Assembly (NCBI GenBank): GCA_028281825.1
Contig: JANQJC010000096.1
Coordinates: forward strand, 1 to 64,000
Direction: 5' to 3'
Length of the DNA stretch: 64,000 nucleotides
Source of the DNA: Flavobacteriales bacterium
GTDB taxonomy: Bacteria; Bacteroidota; Bacteroidia; JANQJC01
Made by a program: the position numbers and the translations under genes. Shown here one piece after another: positions 42,911 through 53,708 of the stretch. The notes beneath the pieces are model-generated. The model did no database searches, was not told where the DNA came from, and saw only the letters and a program-made list of their open reading frames with translations. Each line of letters opens with the position of its first letter. The first letter of the stretch is position 1.

Positions 42911-42957
42911 TACTTACATTGCAAAATATTCCTACTTTAATGGAAATTTTAAACTCT

Positions 42958-43299
42958 ATGAAAAATCTTACTATACTAGTGCTGATATTCCTTCCTTTTT
43001 CACTTTTGGCACAAGAAGCTACCACTGACATTGTTCCTGAAAGCCCCAGTGCGAAACAAGCACAAGCTCAATTATTGGAAGGCGACCTAAAGATGGATGC
43101 CAAGGAATACAAGGATGCCGTTCTATATTATACTGAGGCTATCAATCTTAATAAAGAACTTACCTGTGCATATATCTATAGAGCCAAAGCCTATTTTAAG
43201 CTTGGAGAAAACACCAAAGCTTGCTCGGATGTTAATAAGGCTAATGAATTGGGTTGTTGGAGGCCTGAGATAGATACTCTATTAGAAAAGTGCAAGTAG
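42958..43299 (+). CDS. Small exported tetratricopeptide-repeat protein
   Basis: 113 residues from the ATG giving MKNLTILVLIFLPFSLLAQ, a clear signal peptide; two upstream in-frame starts add residues before it. The mature protein has about two TPR units: KQAQAQLLEGDLKMDAKEYKDAVLYYTEAI and LTCAYIYRAKAYFKLGENTKACSDVNKANELG. It likely acts as a periplasmic protein-interaction module. Partner unknown. Its stop codon abuts directly the stop of the convergent PKD-protein gene with no base between. Confidence 0.78.
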   Translation: MKNLTILVLIFLPFSLLAQEATTDIVPESPSAKQAQAQLLEGDLKMDAKEYKDAVLYYTEAINLNKELTCAYIYRAKAYFKLGENTKACSDVNKANELGCWRPEIDTLLEKCK

Positions 43300-46200
43300 T
43301 TACTTAATCAGGTTCACCTGCCCCCTGAATTTATGAGGGTGTTTCTCGAAGTCCATCACCTGGACTTGATAGATATAGGTTCCACCTTCAACAATCTCAC
43401 CTACATTGTGTTTTCTTCCATTCCAGCCCTTGTTTTTGTCAGTAGTGAAAAATAACTGCTCCCCCCACCTATTAAATATTCGAAGTTCAAAATCAGTAAA
43501 CCCTTCACCATAACACAAAAACTCATCGTTTATACCATCTTTACCGGGTGTAAAAGCTGATGGGATATACATTGTAAAAGCCTCTTCAATTATAATCGGT
43601 ATAGTAACCGTGTCAGCACAGGCATGTTCAGTAAGCACAATCTGCTGCACAAAATAAGTTCCAGTATCATCATAAACATGAAAGGGGTTTTGTTCAATTG
43701 AGTAATCAAAGTCCGTCAAAACCCAATCCCATGCCACAGATAGTGAAGACTTGTCTGTAAACTGAACTTCAGGCAATAGAATTGAAGCCGGCTGTGGGGT
43801 AGCAACGAAATTAGCCACTGGCGTTGGAAATACTTCCACCCTATCGCTATCACTTACTACCGAGCTACAACCATTAGCTGAGATGACTTCTAATGTAACA
43901 TTATAAAAACCTGCGGTATCATATATGGTCTCTGTATTTGGATCAAAGTCTATGCGTTCGTTACCAAAATTCCAGTTCCACTGAGTGATATTATAGCCTG
44001 ACGCTATGGTACTTTCATCCAAGAAGTTTACTTGCAAAGGCATGCAGCCAGTATCGGGTATTACTTTATAAGAAATGTCAGGGCGCGGATAAACTTCAAC
44101 TTCATGCGAAACTGAATCCACACAGTTTTTGTCTGATGTAGCCACCAGAGTGGCAGTGTAAAAACCCGCCTGTGGGTAAACATGGACAGGTTCATATAAA
44201 ACAGAAGTTTCTGAATCACCGAAATACCACATCTGGGAGCTTACTATTCCACTTGCAATATCACTTTCATTAGTGAATTGAGTAGTGTCATATACACATA
44301 CCTTGTTTGATGAGAAATCAGGTTCAGGTAGGTCATAAACTGTAATAGAGTTCTCAGTAGCATTAGCACATCCACTATCTGTCTCCACGGATAATATCAC
44401 TGAATACTGCCCAGGGTTAGGAAAAATGAAGTCAGTATTTTGGCTTGAGGAAGAACCTATTCCGCCAAAGTTCCAGTTCCATTGGTCAATCACACCTGGA
44501 GTAGCATCAGAAGCATCTACAAAGGTGGTTGGTACACCAAAACATACTGAGTCAAACGTAAAATCAGCAATGGGTACTGGAAATATCACCACATCTCTTT
44601 GTATGGTATCGTCACAACCATATTGTGTGGATACAATTAATTCAACCGCATAGGTTGAGTCAACAGCATACTGATGTGTAACCGGATTACCGCTGTTAGT
44701 ACTAATTGTATCACCATCCCCAAAATACCAATCCCATTGACTGAGTGTGCCCGATTGACTGGAGGAAGAATTATTGAAAGTGGCTGCTACACCCTGACAA
44801 ACGTTTTGAACAGAAAAATCAGCTACCGGGTCATTATACACAGTGATAGCCTGCACAATGGTATCTACACAACCATGATTGGTTTCTACTGCTAACATCA
44901 CATTATAAGGCCCGGCCACTGTGTAAGTATTGCCTGGGTCACTAGAAGTGGATGTATTTAAGTTATCGCCGAAGTCCCAGTAATAGTCCGTTATATTGCC
45001 TGAAAGGCTGGTAGATGTATTGGTAAAATCAGCAGCCTGATTGGGGCACACGTTGAAAAAGTCAAAATCAGCCTCTGGATTATTGAATACTTCCACAGTA
45101 TGCTCGACTGTGTCTGTGCATCCATTGTCAGATTCTACTACCAAGCTTACATTGTAGGTATTAGGTGAAACATAATTGTTGGTGGGGTTAGCCAGTGATG
45201 ATGTATTAAAATCATCAAAATCCCAATAGTAAGCATCAATAGTACCCACTGAAATTTGAGACAGGTCTGTAAAGCTAATAGGCGTATTATGACACTCGTC
45301 AGTAAAATCAAAGTCAGCTGTTGGTGATGGATAAACAGTAACGGAAACGGTATCACTACCCAAACAACCTGCATCGCTTTCCACATCAACTATATAATCA
45401 GTGGTTATGATGATGGTTCCTGTGTTTGATAATGTCACAGTCGGATTTGCCGCAGAAGCATCACTTAATCCAGATGTAGGGGTCCAGGTATAGGTAAAAC
45501 CCGTGGTCGGAGCAGTTCCAATAGGTGCACTTTCACCATTACAAAAACTAGTATCAGGTCCTGCATCAGCTACTGGTGCAATGATTACATCCACAGTTTC
45601 TGTAGTGTCCCAATCACATGCTCCCTCTGTATAGGTATATGTAATAGTATGTTGACCAACACCTGCATCAAATGCATTGAAATCGGTGCCAGCTATTCCG
45701 TTGCCTGTGAGTACACCTCCTACTGGGGTTAATGTAAGTGGATTATCTATGTCACTATAGCAATATTGGGCAGCTAAGCCATCAATCACGGGCTCATAAG
45801 TTAAACCTGAGGCATTTTTAAAATCAATATTATTGGTTGAATCACATTCTGGGTAAACCAATTCAGGGGCATTTGTCGGGCTACTTCCATCGTCGTTAAT
45901 AGATACGTAAAGGTCAAACGGGGTATTATTCCAAGGAAGGTCAAATGTTTCAGTGACACAAACTGTTGTATCTATATCAGTTGCAGTGAGGTTTTGAGTA
46001 TTGATAGCGGCACCTCCAGCCAATGGATTACCATTATAAAATGTAACAGGTATGTTACCCATAATGCGTTTGCTTCCAATATTGCACACCTCAAATGTTA
46101 CACTCATTTGGTCAGGTGCAACTTCACAAAACCTAATGGTATCAATTTCTACTGTAAAGTCCGCTACTGGTATGAATAAAGGCTCCCAACTTTCATCAAA

Positions 46201-47763
46201 AAGAGGTGATTGCGAGATAAAACTGTTTATGGCTGGAAAATCACCATTGTTCTGTTGCAATCGGGGAATTGTTAAATCATCGTTGATATTAGTGATTGAA
46301 TAAGCGTGCTGATTCATTACTTTACGGGTAGGTATCCATTCAAAACCACTGCTCTTGTATACCCTTACCTTACCAGAACCTCCCTGATTATTTGTTGAGC
46401 AATTACAAATTATATCAGCGTACCTGTCACCATTGGCATCAGCTACTGTTGGAAACTCTGTTCTGGTTGCTGAACCGCAAGGTGTTGCCACTTTCACATT
46501 TCCTGTTGCTCCATCGTACACACGAAGGTTATTTTCGTCCCTATATACCAGTTCAGTAATACCGTCCCCTTCAAAATCAAAAGCCGAACCTGTTGTCTGT
46601 TGTGAGCCATCAACTGTAGTTTTTTGCCACAACTGTATCATTGCATTAGTGCCAATATTGTAATCTATTACGACATACTTATGACTACCTCCTACCCCAA
46701 TCTCAGGGTAGCCATCGTTATCATAATCTGCAATGTTGGGCCTTCCACCACTACCAGTACCAGGTATGTCAAATGTAGCCCCGAGCTGATTACCTGTAAC
46801 GGGGTTCCACACGTATACTTTACCGCCACGTGTCACTATCACATCTAAGGTCCCGTCCATATTCATATCGGCCACCGCGGTATAGCCGTCACCTAATGGG
46901 CCTACATTATTAGGTACGGGCATCATTGTGCCCCCGGGAATGTTGACCTCATAAACAGTATTACCACAAACCAGTTCCATGCCACCGCAATTGCCGCAGG
47001 CACTAGTTGGTAAAACGTCAGCTGCGACAGGATGCCTGGAAGTGTTAGAGGTGTTTCTTCCTGAACTACCGGCACCTCCAGAAGCTATGAGTGCACCAGT
47101 TTGAGAGTTGTAAATCTCATTAGCTACATATATCTCAGGGTTTCCATCGCCATTAAAGTCAGCAATACCCGGACCTACTTCGGCATGAGGAACATTAGGC
47201 GGGGTGTAACCAGCCTTAGGATTGCCATTGTGCTCAAAGCAATGTAGCTTGGAATTGGCAGTGACCACATATATCTCTCCAAAACCATCATTATCAGTAT
47301 CTGCAACGGCCATAGCGTCAGAGTAATCTAATATCGCTGGACAGGTAATAGTTAACTCAGTAGCTCCTGTCGTGCCATTCAAAACATAGAGCTGATTAGC
47401 GTTTTTAGAGTGACAGATAATTTCAGGTACATTATCGGCATCAATATCTGCCACCAAGGAAATACTTCTAGTAGACACCGTAACTGTTGACTCCCAAAGT
47501 AAAGTCACACCAAAAGGGCCTACCGGAGGCTGTAATTCACAGTGATTAACCGGGTAGCCATAAAAGAAGGAATCGCAGGCAACCTGGCCGGCACAATCCG
47601 AATCGTAGCAATCAATCTGCCCATCTCCATCGTCATCAACACCGTTACTACAATTCTCTTGTGCATCAGCAACAGAACAGAACACTGAAAAGCTTAGGTA
47701 TAGTAGATAAAACCTCCAATGGCATAAGATATACTTTAATACCTGACATTGGGGATTACTCAT
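43300..47763 (-). CDS. Giant surface protein: FG-GAP propeller, seven PKD domains, T9SS type B (gliding-type) C-terminus
   Basis: 1487 residues. After the signal peptide (about 1-35) comes a Cys-rich MopE-like motif (CSNGVDDDGDGQIDC, two copies of D-x-D-G calcium loops). Residues ~55-500 are FG-GAP/VCBS propeller units such as VADTDNDGFGEIYVV and IADFNGDGNPEIYVA. A CARDB-like region (~530-640) and two Ig-like units follow. I count seven PKD domains (~790-1385), each beginning with a phrase like PVADFSVQNVC and a W-x-F-G-D turn. The last ~90 residues are CHU_C: YIPSAFTPGKDGINDEF, FNRWGEQLFF, YIYQVQVMD, a type IX secretion signal. Likely an adhesin exported to the surface. It is at the end of the plug/sigma/anti-sigma cluster, with its own promoter and dyad. 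Confidence 0.92.
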   Translation of the reverse strand: MSNPQCQVLKYILCHWRFYLLYLSFSVFCSVADAQENCSNGVDDDGDGQIDCYDSDCAGQVACDSFFYGYPVNHCELQPPVGPFGVTLLWESTVTVSTRSISLVADIDADNVPEIICHSKNANQLYVLNGTTGATELTITCPAILDYSDAMAVADTDNDGFGEIYVVTANSKLHCFEHNGNPKAGYTPPNVPHAEVGPGIADFNGDGNPEIYVANEIYNSQTGALIASGGAGSSGRNTSNTSRHPVAADVLPTSACGNCGGMELVCGNTVYEVNIPGGTMMPVPNNVGPLGDGYTAVADMNMDGTLDVIVTRGGKVYVWNPVTGNQLGATFDIPGTGSGGRPNIADYDNDGYPEIGVGGSHKYVVIDYNIGTNAMIQLWQKTTVDGSQQTTGSAFDFEGDGITELVYRDENNLRVYDGATGNVKVATPCGSATRTEFPTVADANGDRYADIICNCSTNNQGGSGKVRVYKSSGFEWIPTRKVMNQHAYSITNINDDLTIPRLQQNNGDFPAINSFISQSPLFDESWEPLFIPVADFTVEIDTIRFCEVAPDQMSVTFEVCNIGSKRIMGNIPVTFYNGNPLAGGAAINTQNLTATDIDTTVCVTETFDLPWNNTPFDLYVSINDDGSSPTNAPELVYPECDSTNNIDFKNASGLTYEPVIDGLAAQYCYSDIDNPLTLTPVGGVLTGNGIAGTDFNAFDAGVGQHTITYTYTEGACDWDTTETVDVIIAPVADAGPDTSFCNGESAPIGTAPTTGFTYTWTPTSGLSDASAANPTVTLSNTGTIIITTDYIVDVESDAGCLGSDTVSVTVYPSPTADFDFTDECHNTPISFTDLSQISVGTIDAYYWDFDDFNTSSLANPTNNYVSPNTYNVSLVVESDNGCTDTVEHTVEVFNNPEADFDFFNVCPNQAADFTNTSTSLSGNITDYYWDFGDNLNTSTSSDPGNTYTVAGPYNVMLAVETNHGCVDTIVQAITVYNDPVADFSVQNVCQGVAATFNNSSSSQSGTLSQWDWYFGDGDTISTNSGNPVTHQYAVDSTYAVELIVSTQYGCDDTIQRDVVIFPVPIADFTFDSVCFGVPTTFVDASDATPGVIDQWNWNFGGIGSSSSQNTDFIFPNPGQYSVILSVETDSGCANATENSITVYDLPEPDFSSNKVCVYDTTQFTNESDIASGIVSSQMWYFGDSETSVLYEPVHVYPQAGFYTATLVATSDKNCVDSVSHEVEVYPRPDISYKVIPDTGCMPLQVNFLDESTIASGYNITQWNWNFGNERIDFDPNTETIYDTAGFYNVTLEVISANGCSSVVSDSDRVEVFPTPVANFVATPQPASILLPEVQFTDKSSLSVAWDWVLTDFDYSIEQNPFHVYDDTGTYFVQQIVLTEHACADTVTIPIIIEEAFTMYIPSAFTPGKDGINDEFLCYGEGFTDFELRIFNRWGEQLFFTTDKNKGWNGRKHNVGEIVEGGTYIYQVQVMDFEKHPHKFRGQVNLIK

Positions 47764-47791
47764 GAGGATAATGAAACTTCAATTTATCCTC
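47764..47791. promoter_or_regulatory. Perfect 8-bp inverted repeat between promoter and start codon of the PKD adhesin gene
   Basis: GAGGATAA (47764-47771) and TTATCCTC (47784-47791), 12-base spacer. One arm abuts the start codon, the other touches the predicted -7 element, covering the expected transcription start. A repressor site is the simplest reading. Confidence 0.55.
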
Positions 47792-47798
47792 AAATTTA
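47791..47798 (-). promoter_or_regulatory. Predicted -7 element of the PKD adhesin gene
   Basis: Minus strand TAAATTTG, exact TAnnTTTG, 27 bases before the ATG. Confidence 0.5.
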
Positions 47799-47877
47799 AT
47801 AGAAATTTGACAACTGATGAAATATTACCAAACCCTTACAGTTATTAGCCAGTAGCCCGTAAGAATGTCTAAAATCC

Positions 47878-49041
47878 TTATTTGAAGTCTAGTTTTTCTT
47901 GTGCCTTTTTAGCATAAAAACCACCTTGTTCAATTATTTCCTGGAGGGTGGCTTTAAGGTTCTTGTAATCCGCTAGTTGTTCAAAGGAAAGTGCTTTGTA
48001 CCATTGGGCTTCTTCATAAAAAGTATTGATATAACTTTTCTCTACTTGAGAAAAAAACTGAATAGCCTTGTTAGCCTTGCCCAAGTTGTAATAGCACAAG
48101 CCACCGTAAAAGAGCGCATTTTGGTCCTCAGGGAACTGTTCAAGTACAACCCTATAATCTTGAAGAGCTGCTTTGTAGTCATTTCTAGAGAATTTACCCA
48201 TTGCCTGCTTCAAATAGCTATCGTAAGATATTGTCTTGGTACTAGGGCCATACCTTTCCCACTCATTATTTTGTGCTTTGTATTCGTATTTGGCTTCTAC
48301 CCCGCTTAAATCAAAGCCTGGAACATAAATTGCCTGGTCATAGAATTTGCTGTAATCCACTGTTTTCAAGTTGTTGTAGTACTTGAGTACCACGTTTGAC
48401 TTACTGGAAGATTTACTGACTTTGGGTGTTGGCAAATCTCCTTTAACATGTTCTGGTTCCAGGGCTGTTATTGAACCTTCAAATTGTTTCTTTTCTTCTT
48501 CCTCTTTTGTTTCAGGAACAATGGATGCTTTCTGTTCTTCCTGGTTTTCTAGGGCTACCTCATAAGAGATTTGCTTTTCTTCCGCTATTTCATCGGCTTT
48601 CACTATTTCTTGCTGGTCTTGCTCAAAAGCACTGAGGTAAGAAGTTTCAATTATTTCTGCTGGCTGTTGTTCAGTTTTTTCAACTGGTACTTCTTGGGTT
48701 ACATCATGCCTTTTTTGGAGATAATTAACTGTGATGAGGGCGGTGATAATAAAACCCACTAAAATAGCTAGCGCAGGCACAACCACTGGAGCCCTCAGCC
48801 AATCTGGCGTTCCCGAGACTGATTGTTGAAATTGTTTACGGTACTTGTTAATATTAGCAACGGCAGATAGATTTTGCTCATAACCCTCTATGGCTTCAGC
48901 GTTAAGTTGATTAGCAGATATCTTTTGCTCAATAACATATTGCTCTTCACGCGTGACCTTGCCGCTCATGTATTTTTCCAACTCATCCTGCGAGAGAAAG
49001 CCGCTGTTTTCAAATATATGTTTACCTCGTAGCGAACTCAT
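47878..49041 (-). CDS. Membrane TPR protein, probable anti-sigma factor
   Basis: 387 residues, no signal peptide. The N-terminal cytoplasmic part (SQDELEKYMSGKVTREEQYVIEQKISANQLNAEAIEGYE) resembles the short anti-sigma domain of Bacteroidota ECF partners. One membrane segment follows (about 84-108, VVVPALAILVGFIITALITVNYL). A disordered, glutamate-rich periplasmic stretch (about 110-215) leads to TPR units (about 285-380, MGKFSRNDYKAALQDYRVVLEQFPEDQNALFYGGLCYYNLGKANKAI in part). The first 20 bases overlap the ECF sigma gene, typical of sigma/anti-sigma pairs. I infer that it binds the sigma factor inside and senses a periplasmic or envelope signal through its TPR. Confidence 0.78.
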   Translation of the reverse strand: MSSLRGKHIFENSGFLSQDELEKYMSGKVTREEQYVIEQKISANQLNAEAIEGYEQNLSAVANINKYRKQFQQSVSGTPDWLRAPVVVPALAILVGFIITALITVNYLQKRHDVTQEVPVEKTEQQPAEIIETSYLSAFEQDQQEIVKADEIAEEKQISYEVALENQEEQKASIVPETKEEEEKKQFEGSITALEPEHVKGDLPTPKVSKSSSKSNVVLKYYNNLKTVDYSKFYDQAIYVPGFDLSGVEAKYEYKAQNNEWERYGPSTKTISYDSYLKQAMGKFSRNDYKAALQDYRVVLEQFPEDQNALFYGGLCYYNLGKANKAIQFFSQVEKSYINTFYEEAQWYKALSFEQLADYKNLKATLQEIIEQGGFYAKKAQEKLDFK

Positions 49042-49612
49042 TATATTGGGATAAAATCATTTTCAAATTACGTTTACCGTTTTGTATGTGGCTTTTCACC
49101 TCATTCATGCTAAAACCCGTTTGTTCTGAGACCTCCTTGTAGCAATACTGCTTGATATAAAAAAGCACGATGCATTGCTTTTGTTCAGACTTGAGCTTTT
49201 CGATAGCCTGTTCTAGCTTGGTTAATTGCTTCTCTTTTACCTCGATGTCTTCACTATCATCCACTTCAGGGGCACTTTTTATCTCTACTTCGTATTCATT
49301 TTCTCTCTTAAGGGCACGGCCTTTCGTGCGAAGGTAGGTGAAGCAATAGTTTCGCGTTACCACATACAGCCAAGCATTGATGTTGTCAATTTCCTTTTCT
49401 TCAAAATCTTTCAAGAGGCGCTCATAGATTGCCAAAACTGCTTCATTACTTTCGTATTCATTTTTTAGATACTTCAAACAAACACCAAATACCAAATGGA
49501 AATACCGCTCAAACAGTACTTCCAGGTATTTGCTGCTGCCCGATTGCCTATATTTCTCAATAAGCTCATGGTCGTCCAACTTTTTGATATTTTTTCTATT
49601 GAAGAAAAACAT
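49022..49612 (-). CDS. ECF-type RNA polymerase sigma factor
   Basis: 196 residues, normal ECF length. Region 2: LIEKYRQSGSSKYLEVLFERYFHLVFGVCLKYLK, then ERLLKDFEEKEIDNINAWLYVVTRNYCFTYLR; region 4: LEQAIEKLKSEQKQCIVLFYIKQYCYKEVSEQTGFSMNEVKSHIQNGKRNLK. It directs RNA polymerase to an alternative promoter set. The start is 2 bases after the stop of the plug-domain gene and the stop overlaps the membrane TPR gene, so the three are one operon. No C-terminal extension. Targets likely include this operon and the downstream adhesin, which is inference. Confidence 0.92.
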   Translation of the reverse strand: MFFFNRKNIKKLDDHELIEKYRQSGSSKYLEVLFERYFHLVFGVCLKYLKNEYESNEAVLAIYERLLKDFEEKEIDNINAWLYVVTRNYCFTYLRTKGRALKRENEYEVEIKSAPEVDDSEDIEVKEKQLTKLEQAIEKLKSEQKQCIVLFYIKQYCYKEVSEQTGFSMNEVKSHIQNGKRNLKMILSQYNEFATR

Positions 49613-49614
49613 AT

Positions 49615-50340
49615 TTAGCGCCTGCCAGAATTATATTGATTATACAGGTCAAAATAGCTATTTGTCTCGATTACAATCACTCCTCCTGTCAAGTCTCCAT
49701 ACATAGCCGGCACACCACCGCCGTATACTTCCATACTTTTGATAGAGCGGGCGGGCGCAACACCGTTAAGGCTTTTTACTCTCATGCCATCCACATAATA
49801 GGCGTTTGTGCCCTCTCTTGCTCCGCGCATTCTCACTTGTCCATCTGATGATTGTTGAACTCCTGGTACAGTGGCTGCAATAGCAGAAATATCAGTAGGG
49901 TCTGGAGCCCTTTGAATAAAAACAGGGTCTAGTACTTCAATGGAAGGTTTATCAGGCCGAATGAGTGGGTTAGTGTATGCAATGACTATTACACCTTCAT
50001 CACCACCAATTAAAATCGCTTTGGTTTTTAAAAGTATATCCTGCAAAGGCAGTACTTCGCTGGTGTTTAGCTTTATGCCAGTTATAATAGCAGTTTGCAT
50101 GCCCATAGAAGAAACAGTTAAGTTGTAAGTGCCAGCTGATAAAGGCTTTATTCTAAAATTCCCATCTATGTCCGTAGCAGAGCCTATTTTAGCCCCCCCT
50201 ACTTCGACATATACATTAGCACCTATTACAGGCTCACCGGTTTCTTCATCCAGCACCCTGCCATTTATTTGGCTGTTTCTTTGGGCAAAACTGATGAGAC
50301 CTAGAAGAACAAAGACGCTTGCAAATAGTACTTTTTTCAT
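49615..50340 (-). CDS. Carboxypeptidase-regulatory-like plus TonB plug domain protein lacking a beta-barrel
   Basis: 241 residues with signal peptide (MKKVLFASVFVLLGLISFAQ). Residues ~23-110 are a CarbopepD_reg-like domain (INGRVLDEETGEPVIGANVYVE, ATDIDGNFRIKPL) and ~115-230 a plug domain (RAPDPTDISAIAATVPGVQQ, VRMRGAREGTNAYYVDGMRV, IKSMEVYGGGVPAMYGDLTGG) as at the N-terminus of SusC-like TonB receptors. The protein ends right after the plug (YNQYNSGRR), where a receptor would continue for 600+ barrel residues. The ECF sigma gene starts 2 bases later, so this looks like a complete stand-alone protein rather than a truncation. It may act as a periplasmic signal carrier to the membrane anti-sigma protein. 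Confidence 0.85.
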   Translation of the reverse strand: MKKVLFASVFVLLGLISFAQRNSQINGRVLDEETGEPVIGANVYVEVGGAKIGSATDIDGNFRIKPLSAGTYNLTVSSMGMQTAIITGIKLNTSEVLPLQDILLKTKAILIGGDEGVIVIAYTNPLIRPDKPSIEVLDPVFIQRAPDPTDISAIAATVPGVQQSSDGQVRMRGAREGTNAYYVDGMRVKSLNGVAPARSIKSMEVYGGGVPAMYGDLTGGVIVIETNSYFDLYNQYNSGRR

Positions 50341-50499
50341 GGTTTCCTTGGTTTAAATTTCGTTTAAATGAATCCACCATGCAACCTATTCCACAAAATT
50401 TTTCGAAAAAAGTTTAGTTTTCAACAATCGATGTATCTTCCTCAATGATTTTTTTAATTTGGTGCGACGTTTTATTTCTAACTGTTTTAAACTATAAAA

Positions 50500-51458: not shown

Positions 51459-53708
51459 ATGAAAAAGCTAATAATTGCGCTTTTGGCTGTTGTGCCATTG
51501 ATATCATTGGCCCAGTATCCTGACAATGACGAATTCACCATTTTTATTACTGTAAAAAACGATGAAGGAAAAATTGTTCCCTTCACCAATCTTGTATTGA
51601 CCGAAAAGGTAAGCAAGCAAGAAACAAGCGTTACCACTGACGTTAGAGGTAAAGTAGAAGTAAGAGCCACCAGAGGGAAAAATTACCTGGTAAGCTTTGA
51701 CGATGCCGAAGGCATTACAGAACTGAGCACCCCTGCCCGTGGGCAGACTTTTTACACCAAAACACTCATTTACAATCCTATTGGTGGCATTGAAACAACT
51801 ACACTTGATTCTATTTATCAAAAGATATCAGGCAGAGACAGAGCTGGAGATAACGATGCCATTGTAAACATAAGGTTGAGCAATCGTGTGGGCAGGCCAT
51901 TGAGGAATACGGAAGTCAGACTGGTTTCTAACAGAGCCAAAAAGGTCTACATTGCAACTTCTAACGGTACTGGAGAGGCCAAGTTTCTGGTTCCTACCAA
52001 TCAAACTTATGATATTGGTGTGGAAGATATAGATGGTTACAGGGATATTACCTTACCTGAACGCGGAAGACTAACCATTAATAAGGGATTTAAATTTCAG
52101 CCTACAGAAATTACAGAAATCGTTAATGGTGATACCATTACCCAGGAATGGCCTGACCGCTCTGGCCCGACTTCTGCCAGGGCTTACGTGAATATGCTTT
52201 TGAAAAACCCACAAGGTGAGCCCTTACCCAATGAGAAAGTGTATATAGATGTGAAGATTGGACCCGAAGTATATATGGCTACCTCTAATGAAAGTGGTGT
52301 AGCGGAATTCTTGTTACCCAAAGGTCATGAGTACCTGCTGAACTTTGAATATGAGCGTGGAGTGGATATTTTGAATTATATGGAAAAGAGGGGTTTTCAT
52401 ACGACAGAGATAGAATACAGCTACATGGGCTCAGAAAGGATTGAAGAGTATTATGAAACAGCTAAAAAGGACAAAAATGGTTTCCGCATAGAGTTTATGG
52501 AAACACCAGTAAAAAGAATTGCTTTTGATGAGCGCAATGTAGAAATCACAGACCAAGGTTTTAACATTAATATGCCCAAGGAAGTTAAAACACCTACCCC
52601 GGCTATTGGTGAAGATATGTTGTTTATTGATGGTGGTTATTACTCGAATGAGTTTTACAGTTTTGATAAAAAAAATGGTAAATTTAATTGGGGAATTTCT
52701 CTTGGAGAAAGCGGCTCTTCATCAGCGGTGTATGAAGACGGAGTGGTATTACTTATCACTGAGTCATGCACCCTATATGCACTTGAAGCTGGCACGGGCA
52801 GGTTGCTTTGGAGCAAGTGGTTGGGACCCAACATTTATTCTTCACCAACTGTAGCCAATGGCAGAGTGTATGCTGTATATCCAAATGAATTAGGCCCCAT
52901 GTTATACAGTGCCAAGGGTAAGCAAAACAATAATGTAGTTGCATGTTTTGACCTTAAATCAGGTGATATAGTATGGCAAAACTGGATGGACGCAGAAGTA
53001 TTGGCTTCAGCAGTGTTGAGTGGCAACTCAGTTTACCTTACTTCTGTTGCTGGCACATTATACCAGTTTAGCAAAGACAAGGGAGTGTTGATGAATACCC
53101 AAAATGTAGCTGCTGTAACTCCTCCAACGGTAGTAAAGGACAAGTTATTTGTGAGCATTAGAGATACCAAAGATGCCACCAAGGAACAGGTGGCTATCTT
53201 CAATGCCAATGACTTGAAGCTCATTAAAAAAGTAGACCAACTCTCATCAGCAGCACAGTATCCTAACCTTGCCGAGTTAGATGCTGATTTCCGCATGAAC
53301 TACAATGGTAGCCGTATTTTACATTATAGGGGCAAGAACTATAATGTGATGGCTGATAAGCTGTATTGCTCAGACCCTGAAAGTGGCAATGTGTTGTGGA
53401 CAAAAGTACTACCAGGTGTGGCTATGAGTGATGATAAACCTACAGAAGGCATGCCAATAGTGGTGAATGGAAAGTTGATTGTACCCACCAAATCGGGTAA
53501 GCTTCAGGTATATAACCCATTAAATGGTAATCTTGAAAAGGAGTTTGATATAGGTGCTACACCCAATAACCAAGCTATTGTTCATGATGGCTGGATATAT
53601 AGCGGCACTGTAGAAGGTAAATTGGTATCCATCAACACTAAGGACAAGAACTTTACTGGGTGGCCTATGTGGGGACTTAACGCAAGCCATAACCCGGTGG
53701 TGGAATAG
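51459..53708 (+). CDS. Secreted PQQ-type beta-propeller protein with three Ig-like N-terminal domains
   Basis: 749 residues with signal peptide (KKLIIALLAVVPLISLAQ). The first ~350 residues hold three related Ig/CarbopepD_reg-like units, each with a phrase like TSNGTGEAKFLVPTNQTYDIGV or TSNESGVAEFLLPKGHEYLLNF. From ~385 the PQQ/WD-like propeller begins: FIDGGYYSNEFYSFDKKNGKFNW, LYALEAGTGRLLWSKWLGP, VACFDLKSGDIVWQNW, LYCSDPESGNVLWTK and LVSINTKDKNFTGWPMWGL, as in BamB-like and PQQ-binding repeat proteins. No PQQ dehydrogenase residues are identified, so a structural or binding role is likely. No T9SS domain at the end. The stop is 1 base from the convergent Nramp stop. Confidence 0.82.
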   Translation: MKKLIIALLAVVPLISLAQYPDNDEFTIFITVKNDEGKIVPFTNLVLTEKVSKQETSVTTDVRGKVEVRATRGKNYLVSFDDAEGITELSTPARGQTFYTKTLIYNPIGGIETTTLDSIYQKISGRDRAGDNDAIVNIRLSNRVGRPLRNTEVRLVSNRAKKVYIATSNGTGEAKFLVPTNQTYDIGVEDIDGYRDITLPERGRLTINKGFKFQPTEITEIVNGDTITQEWPDRSGPTSARAYVNMLLKNPQGEPLPNEKVYIDVKIGPEVYMATSNESGVAEFLLPKGHEYLLNFEYERGVDILNYMEKRGFHTTEIEYSYMGSERIEEYYETAKKDKNGFRIEFMETPVKRIAFDERNVEITDQGFNINMPKEVKTPTPAIGEDMLFIDGGYYSNEFYSFDKKNGKFNWGISLGESGSSSAVYEDGVVLLITESCTLYALEAGTGRLLWSKWLGPNIYSSPTVANGRVYAVYPNELGPMLYSAKGKQNNNVVACFDLKSGDIVWQNWMDAEVLASAVLSGNSVYLTSVAGTLYQFSKDKGVLMNTQNVAAVTPPTVVKDKLFVSIRDTKDATKEQVAIFNANDLKLIKKVDQLSSAAQYPNLAELDADFRMNYNGSRILHYRGKNYNVMADKLYCSDPESGNVLWTKVLPGVAMSDDKPTEGMPIVVNGKLIVPTKSGKLQVYNPLNGNLEKEFDIGATPNNQAIVHDGWIYSGTVEGKLVSINTKDKNFTGWPMWGLNASHNPVVE

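Follow-up and report, generated by a model that had tools for sequence, protein, structure and literature searches.

In a 64,000-nucleotide stretch of a Flavobacteriales contig (the window), three adjacent genes encode a TonB plug protein that lacks a barrel, an ECF sigma factor, and a candidate membrane anti-sigma factor. Together they probably act as an autoregulated switch for monitoring of the envelope. The sequence data show the three-gene operon, the domains and topology of its products, the single plug branch, the promoter, and the motif shared by envelope genes. A first-pass annotation of this DNA had proposed a variant of trans-envelope ECF signaling that combines a barrel-less plug with a TPR anti-sigma factor, and our data support this proposal, as the genes are conserved and have an ECF-type promoter of their own. 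Little is known of the ways in which Bacteroidota detect damage to an outer membrane as unusual as theirs, with its SusCD, T9SS, and surface lipoproteins; a conserved switch whose promoter is defined and whose candidate regulon is at hand would open envelope-damage sensing to direct tests.

The genes lie head to tail on the minus strand of the window in the order plug, sigma, and anti-sigma, with an adhesin gene beyond:

50370..50395 (-), ECF-type promoter TGTGGAAT-N13-GATTC, 29 nt upstream of the plug start codon and in the same position as the motif of the relatives

49615..50340 (-), barrel-less plug protein, 241 aa, with signal peptide, CarboxypepD-like domain, and TonB plug (Pfam, family alignment, AlphaFold model)

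50059..50268 (-), CarboxypepD_reg-like (NTE) domain, residues 25-94 (Pfam; pLDDT >90)

49960..49992 (-), TonB-box-like segment, residues 117-127, VIVIAYTNPLI (alignment with full-length receptors)

49660..49944 (-), Plug domain, residues 133-227, followed by a conserved 14-residue tail, SYFDLYN... (Pfam; alignments)

49022..49612 (-), ECF sigma factor, 196 aa (TIGR02937, Sigma70_r2, Sigma70_r4_2; family alignment)

47878..49041 (-), anti-sigma factor candidate, 387 aa (26-member family; HC2 zinc signature; zf-HC2; predicted model)

48817..49020 (-), predicted cytoplasmic helical anti-sigma domain, residues 8-75 (alignment; helices 18-56, pLDDT ~90; zinc ligands lost in the window copy)

48709..48783 (-), predicted transmembrane helix, residues 87-111 (hydropathy peak from residue 86; model helix 87-111)

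48352..48369 (-), conserved motif LKTVDY of the predicted periplasmic part, residues 225-230 (alignment; K226 invariant; YKVVDY in many relatives)

47884..48225 (-), predicted periplasmic TPR domain, residues 273-386 (Pfam TPR_6; pLDDT >90; fold matches)

43300..47763 (-), neighboring FG-GAP/PKD adhesin, 1487 aa (Pfam, NCBIfam; type B T9SS signal)

The plug protein matched CarbopepD_reg_2 (E=3.7e-16) and Plug (E=1.5e-9) in Pfam, with no other domain and no barrel. Its AlphaFold model (pLDDT 80.6) is confident for the CarboxypepD-like domain and less certain for the plug (block means 60-87), and by fold it matched a SusC NTE domain (9hfj), FepA (1fep), and SusC (8a9y). The Plug hit and the FepA and SusC fold matches thus identify the plug domain of TonB-dependent receptors, and the 22-strand barrel of such receptors is missing from the protein, the sigma gene following at once. 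TonB boxes of receptors are located in the segment between the N-terminal domain and the plug. Here, this segment (VIVIAYTNPLI) aligns with EVxVxxYxxPLI of full-length receptors, indicating that a TonB-box-like stretch is retained; the protein is a putative binder of TonB.

A barrel-encoding frame recovered by correcting a frameshift after position 49615 would have overturned the earlier reading of a receptor without a barrel. We found no such frame behind the plug open reading frame. Because the sigma gene begins 2 nt past the plug stop codon and about 30 relatives end at the same point, the barrel is truly absent. Among 395 genomes of the class, a profile search recovered more than 30 short plug relatives amid many full receptors. 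In an alignment of 30 of the short proteins, including the window copy, all (228-265 aa) end within a few residues of one another, just past the last plug strand. The protein at the locus of the nearest named relative, a Crocinitomicaceae metagenome-assembled genome (L011), is 41% identical overall to that of the window and has the same ending, ...ETKSYFDLYNQY.

A tree that also included 28 full-length receptors placed the short plug proteins on one side of a branch (88/80), with a well supported clade (97/98) of ~1240-aa receptors as sister. As judged from this tree and the alignment, the barrel-less plug proteins are a single branch and a conserved family, not chance truncations. Plug and CarboxypepD domains are receptor domains, as would be expected if a TonB receptor had been broken by a frameshift or truncation and the sigma pair next to it were unrelated. 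That explanation is refuted by the ending common to about 30 relatives of 228-265 aa, their placement in one branch, the next open reading frame only 2 nt on, and the conserved tail SYFDLYN. The ~1240-aa sister receptors are CarboxypepD (NTE) TonB-dependent receptors encoded beside a PorV-family gene. They share ~40% identity with the plug protein over both N-terminal domains and likewise carry the TonB-box-like segment; the plug protein differs from them in having no barrel.

The nearest full-length relative of the plug protein is a TonB receptor of ~1230 aa encoded in its own genome (C27:91568-100354, equivalent to L232:5569-14355), in one row with a PorV-family gene and the gene for an exported protein of 1323 aa that has no Pfam match. 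Other genomes show a similar arrangement (L141 and L149), and a receptor of this kind is present in most genomes of the class.

Since a possible lipobox occurs in only one of the 30 plug-only proteins, the plug protein is most likely soluble, either periplasmic or exported. As a check for identity with the SprA 'Plug' protein of the T9SS, the window plug was compared with PDB sequences at E values up to 0.1, and no SprA-complex chain was among the matches listed. A second group of barrel-less plug proteins (228-229 aa; L150-L152) is sigma-less and has no promoter motif; their genes stand near apparent ribosomal protein genes, L21/L27.

The gene next to that of the plug had been annotated as an ECF sigma factor, in agreement with our matches to TIGR02937 (sigma70-ECF, E=1.1e-21) and, above cut-off, to Sigma70_r2 and Sigma70_r4_2; the protein consists of regions 2 and 4 only. 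In the family alignment, region 4 contains invariant Q-N-G and R residues.

The gene that follows overlaps the sigma gene by 20 nt. Its 387-aa product has a single predicted transmembrane helix and a C-terminal TPR domain (TPR_6, E=3.8e-9; also matched in 18 of 24 relatives), and a FecR domain was matched neither in the window protein nor among the Pfam families found in the 24 relatives, confirming the earlier view of a membrane anti-sigma candidate with periplasmic TPR units in place of FecR. The members of the family share one layout: an N-terminal domain, one transmembrane helix, a long low-complexity linker, a [YL]K.V[DH][YP] motif, and the TPR domain, in which N..FY, F..E, and GFY positions are near-invariant. 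By fold, the TPR model matched many TPR proteins, including YbgF (2xev).

The zinc signature Hx3Cx2C, found in 10 of the 26 aligned family members and gone from the window copy, is that of zinc-type class I anti-sigma domains (ASDI), which are often mixed with zinc-less members in one group (PMC7406223). The helical N-terminal domain of the family agrees with this class, and in lacking the zinc ligands the window copy resembles many known ASDIs (PMC7406223). We therefore consider the 387-aa protein a candidate class-I-type anti-sigma factor, on the grounds of the Hx3Cx2C signature, the zf-HC2 matches (6 of 24 relatives), the one transmembrane helix, and the position of its gene downstream of and overlapping the sigma gene; it would bind and inhibit the sigma factor. 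ASDIs are reported to adjoin only 6% of Bacteroidetes ECFs (PMC7406223). At E values up to 1e-12, the family profile gave no match in the searched genomes of cultured Flavobacterium, Flagellimonas, Pontibacter, and gut Bacteroidales.

In 28 of the 35 loci with a barrel-less plug that we examined, the plug gene is directly followed on its own strand by the sigma gene and then the anti-sigma gene; these triads span at least nine families. The first relative found was that of L011, with the three genes in the same order, and searches at the level of the window's own family and order returned its own genome only. The remaining seven short plug genes have no sigma pair behind them; in one such genome (L146), the sigma and anti-sigma genes are divergent neighbors. 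Conversely, some families (f21) have the sigma and anti-sigma genes with no plug gene in front. These two sets of exceptions show that the plug protein is not indispensable. On the other side of the operon in the window, a gene at 51459-53708 (+) adjoins the module and is transcribed away from it; it encodes a secreted 749-aa protein with CarboxypepD-like and MG-type domains and a PQQ-type propeller.

Conserved synteny had been expected for four genes, the last encoding the adhesin. The gene order indicates that the conserved unit is three genes, not four: the triad is retained, and the gene after the anti-sigma gene varies among loci, with reversed orientation at 13 of 25. The adhesin is indeed a giant PKD protein with a T9SS type B signal, as had been described (CHU_C, E=2.2e-13 and 50.5 bits with a cut-off of 27; TIGR04131, 40.1 with a cut-off of 35). 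It could be the output of a four-gene module in which adhesin expression is driven by the sigma factor and the status of T9SS cargo is reported by the plug. Read-through into its gene is possible, since no terminator was found in the 114 nt that separate it from the anti-sigma gene; at 5 of 25 loci (the window, L120, L123, L139, and L144), the gene behind the operon encodes T9SS cargo, of a kind that differs among them; and one motif site in the window's genome precedes a type A T9SS protein (L229). Against this, the adhesin is not a conserved fourth gene, a candidacy we rejected because the following gene is usually different and so often inverted, and its upstream region has no promoter motif, the best matches (8/13) having the commonest score in shuffled sequences. 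We consider adhesin control unlikely, and neither the adhesin as part of the signaling system nor T9SS cargo or barrel status as its signal is supported. The rate of cargo genes next to the operon (5/25 versus ~2/63 flanking genes, p ~0.02, from small numbers with an approximate background partly read by eye) is a weak hint of enrichment, not of a module. A small secreted TPR protein is encoded on the opposite strand at 42919-43299 (+), where its stop codon directly meets the end of the adhesin gene.

Upstream of the plug gene, relatives share the motif TATGGAAT-N13-GCATC. Its first box, in the form TDTGGAAT, occurs there in 16 of 25 triad loci compared with 0.43 expected in shuffles, and when the variants TRTGCAAT and TATGCGAT are admitted, the two-box pattern is present at 22 of 25 loci (0.02 expected). 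Of the 23 loci with a measurable spacer, 22 have one of 13 nt. This conserved promoter with its fixed spacer in front of the plug gene suggests that the switch is probably autoregulated, and the operon has the GGAA-type -35 element of ECF promoters. The constancy of both the -35 box and the region 4 residues fits one sigma lineage. The window's own -10 element is GATTC, unlike the GCATC of the family. In a GC-rich genus (family f9; L126-L145), TRTGCAAT or TATGCGAT replaces TATGGAAT with spacer and -10 unchanged; a joint change of sigma factor and promoter is possible.

The same motif precedes envelope genes elsewhere. Across the 395 genomes, TATGGAAT-N13-GCATC has 389 sites compared with ~20 for the reversed pattern; in 17 chosen genomes, most of which have a barrel-less plug, TDTGGAAT-N13-GCATC has 64 sites and the reversed control none. 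Sites lie a few tens of nucleotides upstream of genes for TonB (L198), ExbD (L208), and alpha-2-macroglobulin-type proteins (L226 and L227), and likewise of DUF4139, PD40, and CarboxypepD-like protein genes. In the window's genome, relaxed-motif sites precede genes for a DUF4139/4140 protein, the type A T9SS protein, and two CarboxypepD-like proteins, as well as the plug operon. The strongest link between motif and sigma factor, and an independent one, is provided by a ~440-aa CarboxypepD family that bears the motif in G061, G291, G359, and G306 (L196, L211, L214, and L217), as the same family (full-length homology, E 1e-41 to 1e-88) supplies the fourth operon gene in two genomes (L131 and L137), where it either starts 14 nt past the anti-sigma gene or overlaps it. 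Class-wide, genomes average 1.87 motif sites with an anti-sigma match and 0.44 without; we take these statistics as support only, because the association is inflated by an intragenic motif in family f21 and the genomes are not independent. In that family (L166, L168, L171, and L174), TATGGAAT-N13-GCATC lies inside the sigma gene, where it encodes a conserved MESDxELH, and may be either a coding coincidence or an internal promoter for the anti-sigma gene.

Regulon proteins with MG2 and a 'DKPFYEPGDD' stretch were considered as further barrel-less plugs and rejected; they are alpha-2-macroglobulin-like with a TED domain and gave no Plug match in the part read. At L180, L219, and L220, the motif precedes genes for exported proteins of ~440-470 aa with an F.T.FGEE motif.

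From these data we propose the following mechanism. In the resting state, the 387-aa protein would use its cytoplasmic helical domain to keep the sigma factor at the inner membrane. Its periplasmic TPR domain would watch the envelope, with the barrel-less plug protein of the same operon as the most likely intermediary; this plug protein resembles the periplasmic face of an outer-membrane receptor and carries a TonB-box-like segment. A changed envelope state would free the sigma factor, which would then transcribe its own operon and the scattered envelope genes from TATGGAAT-N13-GCATC promoters. We infer that the plug protein is a periplasmic ligand, or modulator, of the anti-sigma TPR domain. 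Plausible signals are TonB load and outer-membrane assembly, given the receptor-like surface of the plug protein and the presence of TonB and ExbD in the candidate regulon. The specific proposal that a plug without a barrel is a dedicated periplasmic signal, which binds the anti-sigma TPR domain and reports TonB load or barrel assembly, is tentative. If true, the module would be a trans-envelope sigma switch of a new kind, signaled by the plug of a receptor that has lost its barrel, and its regulon would include TonB, ExbD, and surface-protein genes; for plug domains with no barrel to plug, the module offers a candidate function to look for.

The main alternative, which is quite conceivable, is that the plug protein is an output of the switch, an envelope effector or a TonB-binding decoy that is first in the operon by chance, and that the TPR domain responds to another cue. 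The same promoter stands before standalone plug genes (L141, L147, and L149), as would be expected for an ordinary regulon member; the families with a sigma pair and no plug, and the presence of TonB and ExbD in the regulon, point the same way. Other regulon members are scattered, whereas at 28 of 35 loci, from many families, the plug gene stays next to the sigma pair in fixed order, a tighter association that speaks against this alternative.

An ECF sigma factor, a one-helix membrane anti-sigma factor, and a plug-bearing receptor (here, a relative of one) in a single operon also recall FecI-FecR-FecA, and the module might be a member of that cell-surface signaling family that has lost its barrel. 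This is very improbable: the triad has no FecR, STN, or barrel, its anti-sigma domain is HC2-like, and the periplasmic sensor is a TPR domain. A receptor with STN and beta-barrel was found neither in the window, where the protein has CarboxypepD and Plug only, nor among the relatives, all of which stop after the plug. The plug gene also comes first, and the candidate regulon is a set of scattered envelope genes rather than one transporter.

With SigW-RsiW and RpoE-RseA, which pair an ECF sigma factor with a class I (ASDI/ZAS) anti-sigma factor, the triad shares a helical anti-sigma domain, one transmembrane helix, overlapping genes, an ECF promoter at its own operon, and, in part of its anti-sigma family, Hx3Cx2C; it adds to them a TPR domain in the periplasm and a barrel-less plug as dedicated partner. 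The literature searched, which covered few subscription journals so that absence from it is weak evidence, gave no account of barrel-less plugs in sigma operons, TPR anti-sigma factors, or a TATGGAAT-N13-GCATC regulon in Bacteroidota. ECF control of envelope or secretion genes in this phylum is shared with PorXY-SigP, which governs T9SS genes in P. gingivalis, and with the sigmaECF motif SM6 of F. psychrophilum. SigP, which is activated by PorX (PMC7712824), differs from the triad in that respect. SM6 also covers a sigma/anti-sigma pair, as the triad motif does, but its -10 box is CGT (PMC9723704), unlike the GCATC of the triad.
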